DNA from: a virus
Length of the DNA: 52,429 bases
Strand: one strand, 5' to 3'
IMG/VR virus record: IMGVR_UViG_3300049489_000174
Coordinates: 1-52,429 of that record
Shown here: piece after piece, positions 6,017 to 48,138 of the stretch
How the letters are laid out: the number at the start of each line of letters is the position of its first letter
Numbering within the stretch: the stretch's first letter is position 1
Program-made: the position numbers and the translations under genes
Notes under the pieces: generated by a model
The model's input: only the letters and a program-made list of their open reading frames with translations
Databases searched by the model: none
Told to the model about the DNA's origin: nothing

Positions 6017-6044
6017 TTGACTTTTCCATAAAGCCCGGTAGAAT
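6017..6044 (+). promoter_or_regulatory. sigma70-type promoter of the conserved phage set
   Basis: TTGACT at 6017-6022 and TAGAAT at 6039-6044 have a 16-bp spacer beginning TTT and containing ATAAAG. The same spacer pattern occurs at 13048 and 46395. The start would be near 6051, leaving a leader of about 11 nt that contains AAGGA before ATG 6062. Confidence 0.8.
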
Positions 6045-13047: not shown

Positions 13048-13075
13048 TTGACTTTTAGATAAAGTATGGTATAAT
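13048..13075 (+). promoter_or_regulatory. strong sigma70-type promoter
   Basis: TTGACT (13048-13053), a 16-bp spacer starting TTT and containing ATAAAG, and a perfect TATAAT (13070-13075) preceded by GG. It matches the promoters at 6017 and 46395 almost base for base in the conserved positions. It drives the SSB-like gene at 13149. Confidence 0.85.
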
Positions 13076-18481: not shown

Positions 18482-20334
18482 TGCTTAAAGAGCATCTAGC
18501 TAAGTTTGATACAGAAGATGTAATTGCTATTGACGTTGAAACAATATCGTATGATGATAATGAACCAGCACTTAAACCATATCATGGTCATCGTACTGGT
18601 TTAATTATCATTGGACAAAAGAAAGGTAAAGACAATCTAGTTCTCTCTGTTCCTATACGCCATAGGACAGAGGGGGCTAAGTGTTTTCCACTAGAAAGTG
18701 TATTACCTGATATTAAAGAGTTCTTTCTTAAAGTTAAGTTGTATACAAACCTTAACATTAAGTTCGATCTACATAACTTAGCACAAGATGGTTTGTTTCT
18801 TCCTAATGCATCTTATATTGATTTATCTAGTATGGCTCGGTTCGTCGACCATACTCTTTTATCATATAGTTTAGAATCTTTATGTGAACTATACACTGGT
18901 ACAAGAAAGTCTGATACAGCGAAGGTATGGTGTGAAAAGAATAATACAAAGGACTATGGTAGAATACCGCTAGATATTCTTGTTCCTTATGGTGAGATAG
19001 ACGTTATCGGTGCATTAGATTTGTACTACGCACTACTGAACAGAATGCCTAAAGAGTCTATCAAGGCTTTTAAGACAGAAGTAAATTGTATTAAACATCT
19101 GTTTTGGGCAGAGCGTACAGGTATTCCTATTAATAAAGACTTTCTGTTAAAGCGTCGTATTGGTCTACTTCATACTATGATTAATACTAGTTTAGATATA
19201 ACTAGATTAAGTAATGGTAATATTGAAAACCCAGGATCGTCGGACCAGCGTAACGCATTCTTTACTTCTGTAGGTATTGAACCTATTGAACGTACAGAGA
19301 AAGGTAAGCCCAGCTGGGGTAACAAAGTATTAGAACTAGTAAACCACCCTGTTGCTAAGAAGCTAGTAGAATATAATAAGGCTGCAATTCAAGAATCGAC
19401 GTTCTGCGGTGGATGGATTTCGCATGCCGACAAGGATGGTATTATTCATCCGCAGTATCGTATCAGCGGTACTAGGACAGGTAGATTAAGTAGTGCAGAA
19501 CCTAATGTACAAAATCCACCAGAATGGATATTAGAGTCGTGGCTGATACCCGACGGTTACACTGGTATTAAATGGGACTTATCACAGATTGAGTATCGCA
19601 TATTTAGTCATTACAGTAATGATGCTGAACTGCTAGCATTGTATGCTGCTAATCCTAAAGTAGACTTTCATCAATTAATCGCTGATCGTCTAGGCATGCC
19701 TAGAAAACCAGTGAAGTCTATTAACTTCGGTATTTTGTATGGTATGGGTAATACTAAATTAACTAAATCACTCACTGTCGCTCTATCAGAGTTCGATTCT
19801 CCTGATATGCGTATTAAACTTAGAAAGTTCTTGCCAGCTGGTAAATTGATAATACCAGATATAGGTGACATTGATGATGCTGTAATGGCAGAAGTATCTA
19901 AGGGCGTACTTAGAGACTACAACGAGCGTGTACCAGCAGTTAAGAAACTAATGAATCAGGTACGTGAAGCTATTCAAGTACGCGGTAAGATACGTAACTT
20001 CTTTGGTAGAGAATATAAGTTTACTCTGTCAAAAGCATATATCGCTCTTAACTATTTGATTCAAGGATCAGCAGCCGATTACTTCAAACAACTACTAGAC
20101 TTATCTACAGAGGAAATGATTTCTCTTGGATGGCTAGTTAACAGTGAGGAAATCTGTGACTACTACCTTTATGATAATATACATGATGCTATTGTTTGTA
20201 TTGTTAAAGATGATAAGGTCGAGACATACACGAAGATAATAAATAATCTTTTAGCTAAGGCTCCATTCAGAGTTCCTATTCTGTGTGACTTTGAATATTA
20301 CAAAGGTAACTTCGGTAAAGGATCAAAGTTATGA
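18481..20334 (+). CDS. family-A DNA polymerase with 3'-5' exonuclease
   Basis: The 617-aa protein has Exo I (IDVET, about residues 18-22), Exo II (NLNIKFDLHN) and Exo III (YGEIDVIGALD), then the polymerase motifs. RISGTRTGRLSS precedes motif A DLSQIEYR. Motif B is RKPVKSINFGILYG, with Phe at the position controlling dNTP/ddNTP discrimination. Motif C is NIHDAIV. The usual HDE of motif C is HDA here, and motif A has Tyr where Leu is usual. There is no 5'-3' exonuclease domain. Start and upstream stop overlap as TAATG behind a GGGGAG ribosome-binding site. Confidence 0.93.
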   Translation: MLKEHLAKFDTEDVIAIDVETISYDDNEPALKPYHGHRTGLIIIGQKKGKDNLVLSVPIRHRTEGAKCFPLESVLPDIKEFFLKVKLYTNLNIKFDLHNLAQDGLFLPNASYIDLSSMARFVDHTLLSYSLESLCELYTGTRKSDTAKVWCEKNNTKDYGRIPLDILVPYGEIDVIGALDLYYALLNRMPKESIKAFKTEVNCIKHLFWAERTGIPINKDFLLKRRIGLLHTMINTSLDITRLSNGNIENPGSSDQRNAFFTSVGIEPIERTEKGKPSWGNKVLELVNHPVAKKLVEYNKAAIQESTFCGGWISHADKDGIIHPQYRISGTRTGRLSSAEPNVQNPPEWILESWLIPDGYTGIKWDLSQIEYRIFSHYSNDAELLALYAANPKVDFHQLIADRLGMPRKPVKSINFGILYGMGNTKLTKSLTVALSEFDSPDMRIKLRKFLPAGKLIIPDIGDIDDAVMAEVSKGVLRDYNERVPAVKKLMNQVREAIQVRGKIRNFFGREYKFTLSKAYIALNYLIQGSAADYFKQLLDLSTEEMISLGWLVNSEEICDYYLYDNIHDAIVCIVKDDKVETYTKIINNLLAKAPFRVPILCDFEYYKGNFGKGSKL

Positions 20335-20567
20335 ACTTCATTCACATTGTTAAATACGGTGTAAACATCATCATCGCTACACAAAATATCAGGCACATCA
20401 TGTTGAGTGATGTGCCTGATAGGAGTGACAAGTACCAGATCGAAGTTTTATATTTTGACGGTAATGTACTCGAAATTAGGTCTGATGAGTTAAAGAACGA
20501 TGAGAAGCTATGTATAGCTCTTATGGAAGAAATAGGCGCACTACTCAGTGTTCAAACTATATCTTAA
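20331..20567 (+). CDS. 78-aa hypothetical protein, last gene of the replication operon
   Basis: It is coupled to the polymerase gene by ATGA. The sequence looks alpha/beta (YGVNIIIATQNIRHIMLSDV, YQIEVLYFDGNVLEIRSDE). Its stop TAA (20565-20567) interlocks with the stop of the convergent minus-strand gene through TTAA. The coding sequence contains a perfect 14-bp hairpin that is a terminator when read on the other strand. Function unknown. Confidence 0.6.
   Translation: MNFIHIVKYGVNIIIATQNIRHIMLSDVPDRSDKYQIEVLYFDGNVLEIRSDELKNDEKLCIALMEEIGALLSVQTIS
20382..20421 (-). terminator. terminator of the virion operon, embedded in the convergent gene
   Basis: The perfect inverted repeat TATCAGGCACATCA/TGATGTGCCTGATA (20387-20400 and 20408-20421, 7-nt loop) is followed on the minus strand by TTTTGTG. 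It stands about 140 nt past the last minus-strand stop codon, inside plus-strand coding sequence. On the plus strand no T-run follows, so it should act on the leftward transcript only. Confidence 0.7.
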
Positions 20568-43527: not shown

Positions 43528-45105
43528 TTAATTGAATGATAATTGGTCGCCTAACCCATCATCACCTACTGCACTATCGTCTTGCACTTCATCGCTATCA
43601 CCTAGATCATGCACTGACGTTAGAAGTCTTATTAGTCCTTCTAATGCATCTGGCCCGTCATCATGATCTGAATTAGGATGATCTTGTATCTGCTCTAGTA
43701 GTATCTTTGTGTATGGGCAGTTTCGTTTGAATCTAAAGAATCCACGTTGAAACCATATAGATAACCGAGATATACGAGTATTCTTATGTACTCCATAGTT
43801 CTCAACACCTATTATATTTGGCGCAATTATGCCTTCCTCTTGTAACTTTGCAAATAGTTCCTCTGCTACTAATGCTTGGAAACCATTAGATTCACAGCCA
43901 AATGCTACATATCTAACCTGTTTATACCATTCTACGATAGTAGATGTAAGTTCAGTTAGCGGTATCTTTCTTATGTCGCACTCAATATAACAACATCTCT
44001 GTGCAGGGCAATAATGACCAGTGAGTATAGGGTTATAGTCACCACGTTTTGTTTCTAATCCTTTTGATGGATCGCAGAATCCTACGGTTACTAGCTTCTC
44101 ATCAGGTAGTTCATCATACATTACTGCATCAGAGAACCATTCTTCAGGAAACTCTGACTTTGTAGGATCTCTAGGATTATTCTGCTTTTCTGCATCAAAC
44201 GCAGCATCACCAATAGATGCACGTAGGCACATTAGATCGTAGTAATCTTCTTTCTCAGCCCATAGCACTTCTGTATCAGCAATCATTGCTGCTTTATTAT
44301 CTATAAATAGTTGTTTACACTCCTCTTTACGTCCATCGTTCCACAGCTTCTTCCACATCTTCCATAGTTCTTCTTCTTTACTCCATTTCATTACAGCGCT
44401 GAACTTAATGGTTATGAAGTCAGGACGATCAGCGAGTATACCTACCATACTCTTACGATGTAGATTATTGCCTACAACGAAGAAGTTAGTGTTTGTATCA
44501 CCACACGGTATCAATGCTCTATTTAGCCAGTTAATATCTTTGTCACGCATGGTCGGTGATCTAACATCATCATCACTCTGCGGGTCGTCTAGTACAATAA
44601 GCGTAGGACGAAATTGACGATATTTAATACCGCGAGCATTCTTGCCTTTACCTAATGCAGCTATGCATACACCACTAGCAGTGATTAAATACTCATCTGA
44701 CCAACTATCTCCTTTAGTGCAAGCCATCGGATACTTCTTACGAAGTTCCTCATTAGTCTCTAGTTCAGCACGTATGCTTTTAACGTATTTCACAGCCATA
44801 TCGCTGGTATCAGCACATAGTAATATGAATCTTTCTGATCCTTCACATATAGCTTTTAACGGCATAGCAAATGAGCAGAATGTGCTCTTTGCATATCCAC
44901 GCGGAACTATAACAGTACGCCTCTGCTTTCTACTGAACTTTAATTCATCAGCAGTGCGGCATAATGTATGATGTACTTCACTAAATCCTTTATCGAAGTA
45001 GTGAGGTATATACTTTTGTGCCCATTCTAGCAGACCTATTTCATCAGTTTGTACTGCTTTCGCTCTTATGCGATCTGCGAGCGACGTTAGTATATTCTCT
45101 GTCAT
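43528..45105 (-). CDS. terL: terminase large subunit
   Basis: The 525-aa protein has the packaging ATPase motifs: Walker A-like VPRGYAKST (residues 67-75) and Walker B LIVLDD (169-174) followed by a coupling region. The RNase H-like nuclease domain has its first Asp in VGFCDPSKG (D345), CESNG further on, and DHDDGPDALEG near 493 carrying the last acidic pair. It cuts concatemeric DNA and pumps it into proheads. It overlaps the terS candidate by four bases. Which packaging type (headful or cos) is used cannot be decided by eye. Confidence 0.92.
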   Translation of the reverse strand: MTENILTSLADRIRAKAVQTDEIGLLEWAQKYIPHYFDKGFSEVHHTLCRTADELKFSRKQRRTVIVPRGYAKSTFCSFAMPLKAICEGSERFILLCADTSDMAVKYVKSIRAELETNEELRKKYPMACTKGDSWSDEYLITASGVCIAALGKGKNARGIKYRQFRPTLIVLDDPQSDDDVRSPTMRDKDINWLNRALIPCGDTNTNFFVVGNNLHRKSMVGILADRPDFITIKFSAVMKWSKEEELWKMWKKLWNDGRKEECKQLFIDNKAAMIADTEVLWAEKEDYYDLMCLRASIGDAAFDAEKQNNPRDPTKSEFPEEWFSDAVMYDELPDEKLVTVGFCDPSKGLETKRGDYNPILTGHYCPAQRCCYIECDIRKIPLTELTSTIVEWYKQVRYVAFGCESNGFQALVAEELFAKLQEEGIIAPNIIGVENYGVHKNTRISRLSIWFQRGFFRFKRNCPYTKILLEQIQDHPNSDHDDGPDALEGLIRLLTSVHDLGDSDEVQDDSAVGDDGLGDQLSFN

Positions 45106-45929
45106 ATACCATTTTCCTCGTCGTCTATCGTCATACGTGCTGCTTGCTCTTTCAGTGAGTCGTGCAGTAATCGTATCTTTACATCTTCACCACGTATCTT
45201 TATTGTATCGCCAGGAGTGAATGGTATGTTTTCTACTGGTCTTGTTTTAGGTTGTAACTTCTCTATCTCTGATGCAACGGTTTCTAGGTACTGTGCTGGA
45301 ACGTATTTAGCTATAATGTCAGTTACACCAGAGAATATCTTTTCTATAGTCTCAGGAGTTATTTCATTCATCTTACTCATCTTCTCAGTTATCTGAGAGA
45401 TTTTCTCACACAGTATTGTTACTTGCGCTATAAGATCAATAGGTATTTGCCCTGTATTGACCTTCATCACGATTTCACTTAACATCAAACGCATCATCGC
45501 TTGTTCGGCGTCTAGCTGAATCTTAGTTGGTGAACGTAGTATAGCTTCGTAGCGTTCTTGCAGACTGGGATCAGAGAATAAATTAGTATACATATTAACT
45601 TTCTTTAAGTGCTTCTTACAAGTTAGTGAATTACTATATGTTGTGCATCTTTGATTGTATTTGTTTATCGCTACGCAGCGACGACGGCCTTTGTAATCTA
45701 CTTCCGGCAGTACGCCGGTACGTTCGTATATATTCCACATCAACTCATTTGCTCTTACATTACCTACTGCAACACCTAACTGTATCGCTGATAACAGTTC
45801 TGGATTATTACCATTGCATACTTGTACTATGCCTATGTACTCTAGATCAGTAACTAAATCTCTATTCTCAGTAATTATTTCTTTCCAATTACCGCCTTGC
45901 AGTTCAGTAGTTACAATATTACTTTCCAT
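45102..45929 (-). CDS. probable terminase small subunit with zinc-finger-like motif
   Basis: The 275-aa product is encoded immediately before terL and overlaps it by four bases. An N-terminal helical part is followed by RRCVAINKYNQRCTT and LTCKKH (residues about 84-108), a C-C-C-H arrangement that could bind zinc and DNA. A long helical oligomerisation-like region then runs to about residue 220. The initiating ATG begins six bases after a perfect TATAAT on the minus strand, with no ribosome-binding site, so the message should be leaderless. Confidence 0.6.
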   Translation of the reverse strand: MESNIVTTELQGGNWKEIITENRDLVTDLEYIGIVQVCNGNNPELLSAIQLGVAVGNVRANELMWNIYERTGVLPEVDYKGRRRCVAINKYNQRCTTYSNSLTCKKHLKKVNMYTNLFSDPSLQERYEAILRSPTKIQLDAEQAMMRLMLSEIVMKVNTGQIPIDLIAQVTILCEKISQITEKMSKMNEITPETIEKIFSGVTDIIAKYVPAQYLETVASEIEKLQPKTRPVENIPFTPGDTIKIRGEDVKIRLLHDSLKEQAARMTIDDEENGI

Positions 45930-45935
45930 ATAAGA

Positions 45936-45970
45936 ATTATACTTGACAATTACTATGTGTCAAGTATAAT
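45936..45970. promoter_or_regulatory. perfectly palindromic divergent promoter
   Basis: ATTATACTTGACA (45936-45948) and its exact reverse complement (45958-45970) flank a 9-bp centre. Rightward: TTGACA 45943-45948, TATAAT 45965-45970. Leftward: TTGACA 45963-45958, TATAAT 45941-45936. Both spacers are 16 bp. The two -35 boxes lie inside each other's spacer, so two polymerases cannot bind together. Rightward transcription has a normal leader with GGAGG before ATG 46006. Leftward transcription starts on the ATG at 45929. Confidence 0.85.
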
Positions 45971-46005: not shown

Positions 46006-46398
46006 ATGCAACGAGTTGTTAATGAGTGGAAGTATGTGCCGGATAGGACTGATCTGATTATTCAGTCATTTAAGACTGGAGAAGTAGTTATATCGTTCTA
46101 TGGTATTAAACCAGATTATATCATGGCTCTGCGTCATCTACGCTGGTGCTTTGAGTCAAGTAAAGGACATGCCTATGCTACTGATCTTACAGCAGAGATT
46201 CCTAAACTTCTAAACTGCGGTACGCATAAAGTGTACTTATGGAAGTATCTATCTTATCTAATAACAGGTAAAGTTACTTCTGCATGGGTACGTATTAATC
46301 TATCTGAGTTTAGATTCGGTGAAGGTTCTATACTAGACAGCTCTGGATCAAGTATACTTTGGACGGACTTGGCTCCACTCCAGTTAAAAACTTCTTGA
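46006..46398 (+). CDS. 130-aa hypothetical protein under the divergent promoter
   Basis: ATGGAGGAATT, with GGAGG about five bases before ATG 46006, gives good initiation. The product looks alpha/beta with a strand-rich first half (DLIIQSFKTGEVVISFYGIK) and Trp/Tyr clusters (KVYLWKYLSYLITGKVTSAW). Its TGA stop (46396-46398) lies inside the -35 box of the next promoter. It shares a promoter region with the virion operon, so a role in switching the two directions is possible but unproven. Confidence 0.6.
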   Translation: MQRVVNEWKYVPDRTDLIIQSFKTGEVVISFYGIKPDYIMALRHLRWCFESSKGHAYATDLTAEIPKLLNCGTHKVYLWKYLSYLITGKVTSAWVRINLSEFRFGEGSILDSSGSSILWTDLAPLQLKTS

Positions 46399-46422
46399 CT
46401 TTTGTATAAAGTCGGGTATAAT
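46395..46422 (+). promoter_or_regulatory. strong sigma70-type promoter
   Basis: TTGACT (46395-46400), 16-bp spacer starting TTT and containing ATAAAG, and TATAAT (46417-46422) preceded by GGG. It drives the 392-aa gene at 46443, behind a CGGAGAG ribosome-binding site. Confidence 0.85.
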
Positions 46423-47889: not shown

Positions 47890-48138
47890 ATGCCACATAT
47901 AACAGAGAAGTCTGTAACTAACTATTCTAATAGAGTACAGTCTAAACTACTCAAAGGCCCATGGTCAGCAGATGAAGATTCTACACTAATACACTTAGTG
48001 TCAAAGTTCAACGCTGAGCATACTTACAAAATAGGTAATGTTAACAGAATGTATGCTATAATATCAGATACTATGCATCGGTCTATTTCTTCTTGTCAAC
48101 GACGGTACGTCGAACTAAAGAACTTAGGGAGAGCGTAA
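47890..48138 (+). CDS. Myb/SANT-like DNA-binding protein
   Basis: ATG 47890 is chosen (82 aa). From KGPWSADEDSTLIHLVSKF through RSISSCQRRYVELKNL the sequence follows the Myb/SANT three-helix pattern: Trp plus acidic pair in helix 1, and RS-x-x-x-C-x-x-RY in the recognition helix. The middle Trp is replaced by a Tyr or Ile region. Myb-like domains bind DNA in the major groove. A phage copy could act on its own promoters or on the GTAC arrays nearby, which is inference. AAGGAG upstream is 12 bases away, longer than ideal. Confidence 0.6.
   Translation: MPHITEKSVTNYSNRVQSKLLKGPWSADEDSTLIHLVSKFNAEHTYKIGNVNRMYAIISDTMHRSISSCQRRYVELKNLGRA

Follow-up and report, generated by a model that had tools for sequence, protein, structure and literature searches.

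Genome layout around the divergence point

The window, by which is meant the whole stretch of 52,429 nucleotides analysed here, corresponds to a virus record of an uncultured phage (IMG/VR IMGVR_UViG_3300049489_000174), the contig ends of which overlap by 77 bp. The contig probably represents an almost complete circular map in which the junction differs in repeat length, and the break in the circle is probably located in a GCT/GCC/TAT-rich repeat that extends across this junction (52190-52429 and 1-87). Only two switches of the coding strand are found by a codon-model scan, a divergent one at ~45.96 kb and a convergent one at 20.4 kb, with coding mainly on the plus strand from 46.0 kb across the junction to ~20.4 kb and on the minus strand from 45.9 kb down to ~20.5 kb. 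The sole divergence point of the coding strand is the site of a 35-bp element, from which the flanking genes point away, a terS-like gene leftward from 45929 and the gene g46006 rightward from 46006. The proposal of the preliminary description that this element separates the virion operon from the plus-strand genes is borne out. The features of the locus, together with the further plus-strand promoters, are as follows.

45936-45970, no strand: near-palindrome, arms of 13 nt, centre of 9 nt
45943-45970, plus: rightward promoter TTGACA-16-TATAAT, 12/12, predicted start ~45977
45936-45963, minus: leftward promoter TTGACA-16-TATAAT, 12/12, predicted start 45929, the A of the terS-like ATG
45102-45929, minus: terS-like gene, 275 aa, first of the virion operon, no Shine-Dalgarno, predicted leaderless
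43528-45105, minus: large terminase (TerL) gene, second in the virion operon (phrog_38, E 4.7e-78)
46006-46398, plus: g46006, first rightward gene, 130 aa, function unassigned, GGAGG leader
46395-46422, plus: second rightward promoter TTGACT-16-TATAAT, 11/12, of a three-member family
13048-13075, plus: promoter-family member, intergenic, conserved spacer
6017-6044, plus: promoter-family member with 2 mismatches, intergenic, conserved spacer

The minus arm opens with the terS-like gene and TerL, with the portal, capsid and tape-measure genes further on, and the plus arm contains replication and nucleotide genes. It also encodes (47890-48138, plus strand) a protein of 82 aa in which Pfam recognises a Myb-like DNA-binding domain (E 5e-6), an unusual feature in a phage. 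The genes scanned, which cover the small ORFs in part, revealed no integrase, repressor, sigma factor or phage RNA polymerase, and no lysogeny genes. Since neither a sigma factor nor a phage RNA polymerase was found, both arms probably use the host polymerase.

The codon-model scan also reveals a low-coding stretch at ~48.8-51.1 kb; many GGTAC-(3 nt)-CGGTAC-like repeats and two copies of GTATAATTGGTATAATAGAT are found at 48816-51150. Between two plus-strand genes, positions 51423-51491 form a near-perfect palindrome of 69 bp, in which exact arms of 31 nt flank a centre of 7 nt; it may serve as a terminator or as a replication or resolution site, or may have arisen in assembly. A hairpin at 20387-20421 was considered as a common terminator and rejected, because it lies inside an ORF starting at 20331.

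Symmetry of the 35-bp element and its predicted promoters

The arms of the element (45936-45948 and 45958-45970) are 13 nt each and 100% complementary across a gap of 9 nt. The term 'perfect palindrome', used for it previously, is thus correct for the arms, which are exact; the 9-nt centre is non-symmetric, with two matching pairs only, so that the element is properly a near-palindrome. Sigma70-type promoter sequences (TTGACA and TATAAT 16-18 nt apart) are present on both strands, each with a spacer of 16 and each matching the consensus at 12 of 12 positions, as had been claimed, and the coordinates confirm that each -35 lies within the spacer of the opposite promoter. Judged from this geometry, polymerase binding at the two promoters should be mutually exclusive. 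The consensus hexamers make up 12 of the 13 arm positions and leave a single C:G pair as extra symmetry; chance could account for both this one arm pair and the two matching pairs of the centre. The 35-bp symmetry therefore follows from two consensus promoters set in this register and is not independent evidence of a dyad binding site. The earlier suggestion of an operator contacted symmetrically by a dimer finds no support, both because the hexamers explain the symmetry and because no dimeric regulator was identified in the genes scanned.

Compared with expectation, the promoter matches are exceptional. Exact TTGACA/TATAAT pairs with spacers of 15-19 are expected 0.18 times per window, and three were found, two of them at the 35-bp element. 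Four sites in the window match at 11/12 or better with a spacer of 16 nt, and each of them is either intergenic or immediately precedes a correctly oriented gene. Inverted repeats with arms of at least 12 nt and loops of up to 20 number four in the window versus 0 in 10 simulated sequences. A chance match without promoter function would be in keeping with the number of promoter-like sites in this part of the window, which shows no enrichment (54 versus 49.2 expected), but is an extremely improbable explanation: 40 order-2 Markov genomes matched to the window in trinucleotide composition each gave a best overlapping divergent pair of 18-20, against 24/24 in the window, which puts the double 12/12 pair well beyond the simulated range, and the element occupies the only divergent gap. 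The assignment of two overlapping divergent sigma70-type promoters to the element, predicted from these matches, is well supported.

Packaging sites can occur directly upstream of terS-like genes, which is the position of the element. A packaging site (cos or pac) or other DNA-processing site in place of a promoter would not, however, need an exact sigma70 consensus at functional spacing in both arms, and we regard such a role for the palindrome as very improbable.

The bacterial bidirectional promoters described by Warman, Grainger and colleagues share a -10 and have starts 7-25 bp apart, most often 18 (PMC12825309; PMC10268837). The phage element is like them in being symmetric DNA on which polymerase would be placed in two orientations, one excluding the other, but differs from them in its two separate -10s and two -35s, in the full consensus on both sides, and in its predicted starts (45929 and ~45977), which are ~48 bp apart and hence beyond the 7-25 bp range of promoters with a shared -10. 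The basal activity of the E. coli bidirectional promoters studied there was too low for competition (PMC12825309); as both phage promoters are full consensus, their competition should exceed that of these E. coli cases. The spacer of the phage element is 16 nt, compared with an optimum of 17 nt in E. coli (PMC12825309). In the EcoRV restriction-modification system, PCR/PM are overlapping divergent promoters of which one is occupied at a time, under the control of the C protein (PMC5333194). The phage element likewise has divergent promoters, diverging flanking genes and, by geometry, overlapping polymerase sites; unlike the C-protein-controlled PCR/PM, its two promoters are both exact consensus and form a near-palindrome.

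The predicted leftward and rightward messages

Read leftward, the minus-strand TATAAT is followed by TCTTAT and then by the ATG at 45929, the -10 ending exactly 6 nt before the start codon of the terS-like gene, a name that is based on the place of this gene before TerL and on a Cys/His motif recognised by eye rather than on a family match. With this TATAAT-N6-ATG spacing, transcription at the canonical distance would begin on the A of the ATG itself. No Shine-Dalgarno precedes the terS-like gene; most virion genes carry one, and in two or three others it is also weak. No in-frame ATG, GTG or TTG lies upstream of the terS-like ATG. The gene scores as coding, like other genes, both over codons 1-30 (0.38 bits/codon versus a mean of 0.32) and over codons 31-63. 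With no earlier in-frame start and with a coding signal that sets in at codon 1, a misplaced start is unlikely. AlphaFold models made without alignments were poor (mean pLDDT 45.5 for the terS-like protein and 35.7 for g46006) and were left out of the inference.

Leaderless genes lack a Shine-Dalgarno and have a -10-like TA signal ~12 bp ahead of the start codon, and leaderless initiation is found in phage lambda (PMC3160421). The terS-like gene shares both the spacing of the TA signal and the missing Shine-Dalgarno with the leaderless genes of bacteria and lambda, and differs from those of that study in heading a 25-kb virion operon, the other genes of which mostly have a Shine-Dalgarno. Given a -10 located 6 nt before the ATG, no Shine-Dalgarno and coding from codon 1, the virion operon is predicted to open with a leaderless mRNA, and transcription from the leftward promoter apparently begins at the very first codon of this packaging/virion operon. 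The element is, on these predictions, a rare arrangement, but one that fits known overlapping divergent promoters and leaderless genes.

On the rightward side, g46006 has a predicted leader of ~29 nt that carries GGAGG, and it is the sole gene between the rightward half of the element and the next promoter. This promoter, at 46395, and those at 13048 and 6017 share the sequence TTGACTTTTNNATAAAGYNNGGTAtAAT (three found versus 0 in 100 shuffles), which is absent from the other fetched loci. A 50:50 choice for the whole genome, as envisaged in the preliminary description, is at odds with these at least three further strong promoters of the plus arm and with the differences between the two sides in discriminator and leader, the terS-like message being predicted leaderless and the rightward leader carrying its GGAGG. 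Since the rightward genes have their own promoters, the element is not a whole-genome toggle.

We consider it likely that the element consists of two interlocked divergent, full-consensus promoters of the host sigma70 type at the single divergence point, with competing directions, a leaderless leftward message and a palindrome that is a by-product. Host RNA polymerase would sit on the element in either orientation but never in both, and the two directions would compete. Leftward polymerase would start at the A of the terS-like ATG, or at most one base from it, and produce the leaderless virion-operon message. Rightward polymerase would start ~48 bp away; its message, with a short leader, would serve the 130-aa gene at 46006 and, by read-through, the plus-strand genes, for which further promoters exist from 46395 on. 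The near-palindrome would result from fitting two consensus promoters into a gap of 76 bp. The sequence, its position, the missing Shine-Dalgarno and the coding signal from codon 1 are observed directly; we infer the host sigma factor, the start sites, the competition and the leaderless translation from the DNA sequence. If correct, both arms of the phage genome would be started by one 35-bp element, which would provide a natural near-symmetric case for measuring the competition of two full-consensus promoters, the bidirectional promoters studied so far being weak, as well as a concrete virion operon opening with a leaderless message, for which TATAAT-N6-ATG would be a simple signature for finding others.

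An operator switch, in which a phage- or host-encoded dimer on TTGACA-N9-TGTCAA shuts both promoters or biases the choice between them in an early/late switch, is unlikely. The spacers of the promoters at 46395, 13048 and 6017 do contain a conserved dyad, CTTT-TNNAT-AAAG, with its centre 10 nt from the -35 start and so in the register of the palindrome, and the plus arm encodes the small Myb-like protein and several unknowns. The spacer motif of the palindrome differs, however, from that of the three-member family, the arms are promoter consensus at all but one position around an asymmetric centre, the window shows no excess of TTGAC-N11-GTCAA when up to two mismatches are allowed (12 found versus 24.6 expected), and no repressor-type protein was found in the genes scanned. 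The dyad centre shared by the palindrome and the three promoters is the sole hint of a common regulator, and a weak one. A more elaborate scheme, in which the strong promoters share a spacer dyad read by a phage dimer that, at the palindrome, sets the ratio of virion to rightward transcription via polymerase orientation, the leaderless start tying the first late protein to the state of the ribosome, is improbable.

Relatives and comparable arrangements elsewhere

Searches for close relatives with the terS-like, TerL and DNA polymerase proteins in viral_contigs, and with the terS-like, major capsid, portal and first two rightward proteins in phages, returned none. A TerL profile retrieved 80 distant loci (29-39% identity), ~20 of which have syntenic portal or capsid genes; these distant loci are about 50-70% G+C and have different layouts upstream of TerL. 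The two-arm layout recurs in the Manatee Spring phage MW202657, which lacks such a palindrome, and DNA similarity searches with the two promoter regions as queries gave chance-level matches only.

Among 1765 distinct TATAAT sites in the fetched loci (L003-L224), ORFs of at least 60 aa have their ATG at offset 6 in 35 cases, versus 6.9 +/- 3.1 at other offsets, and five control hexamers give 2-13 cases at offset 6. This pile-up suggests that many phage genes may be leaderless. Nearly all of the peak comes from loci fetched by a promoter-like pattern; the TerL-chosen loci alone, with one offset-6 ATG versus 0.9, are too few to tell.

The exact double pattern with N9 is absent from viral_contigs, a search from which the window's own record was possibly excluded. 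Exact double promoters with spacers of 16-18 nt occur four times in genome_contigs and at least twice in viral_contigs among the matches fetched (L139 and L096). A relaxed form was found at seven viral loci. The symmetric double promoters at L096, L139, L212, L213, L215, L222 and L224 have, like the window, ATTATA...TTGA...TCAA...TATAAT at promoter spacing, and most of them are located between divergent genes; most relaxed matches are short of full consensus. In a control search with a spacing unlike that of a promoter, four loci (two distinct sequences) turned up, every one of them within an ORF. Apparently enriched spacings of ATTATA/TTGACA/TGTCAA were set aside, because the favoured spacings keep the codon frame and several matches read as protein. 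The genes that adjoin the symmetric pairs of other loci are unrelated (transposase/TnpB, HTH regulator/integrase, nucleases, metabolic genes), as in the following cases.

L212: between TnpB-like and baseplate J genes, ATG at offset 6
L213: between an IS200-type transposase and TnpB, ATG at offset 6
L215: between an HTH regulator and an integrase
L222 and L224: between divergent genes
L096, 3627-3662: symmetric double promoter, spacers 18 and 16, endonuclease/exonuclease

The symmetric double promoter is rare and arises beside unrelated genes, with no single function attached to it. An ATG is present at offset 6 on 5 of 26 sides of symmetric pairs (window included), compared with 50 of 1998 TATAAT sites by the same measure. 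At L096 it is present on both sides, so that both messages are predicted to be leaderless, and at L213 (980-2616) an IS200/IS605-type tnpA/tnpB pair apparently has a near-symmetric double promoter in common, with tnpA at TATAAT-N6-ATG.
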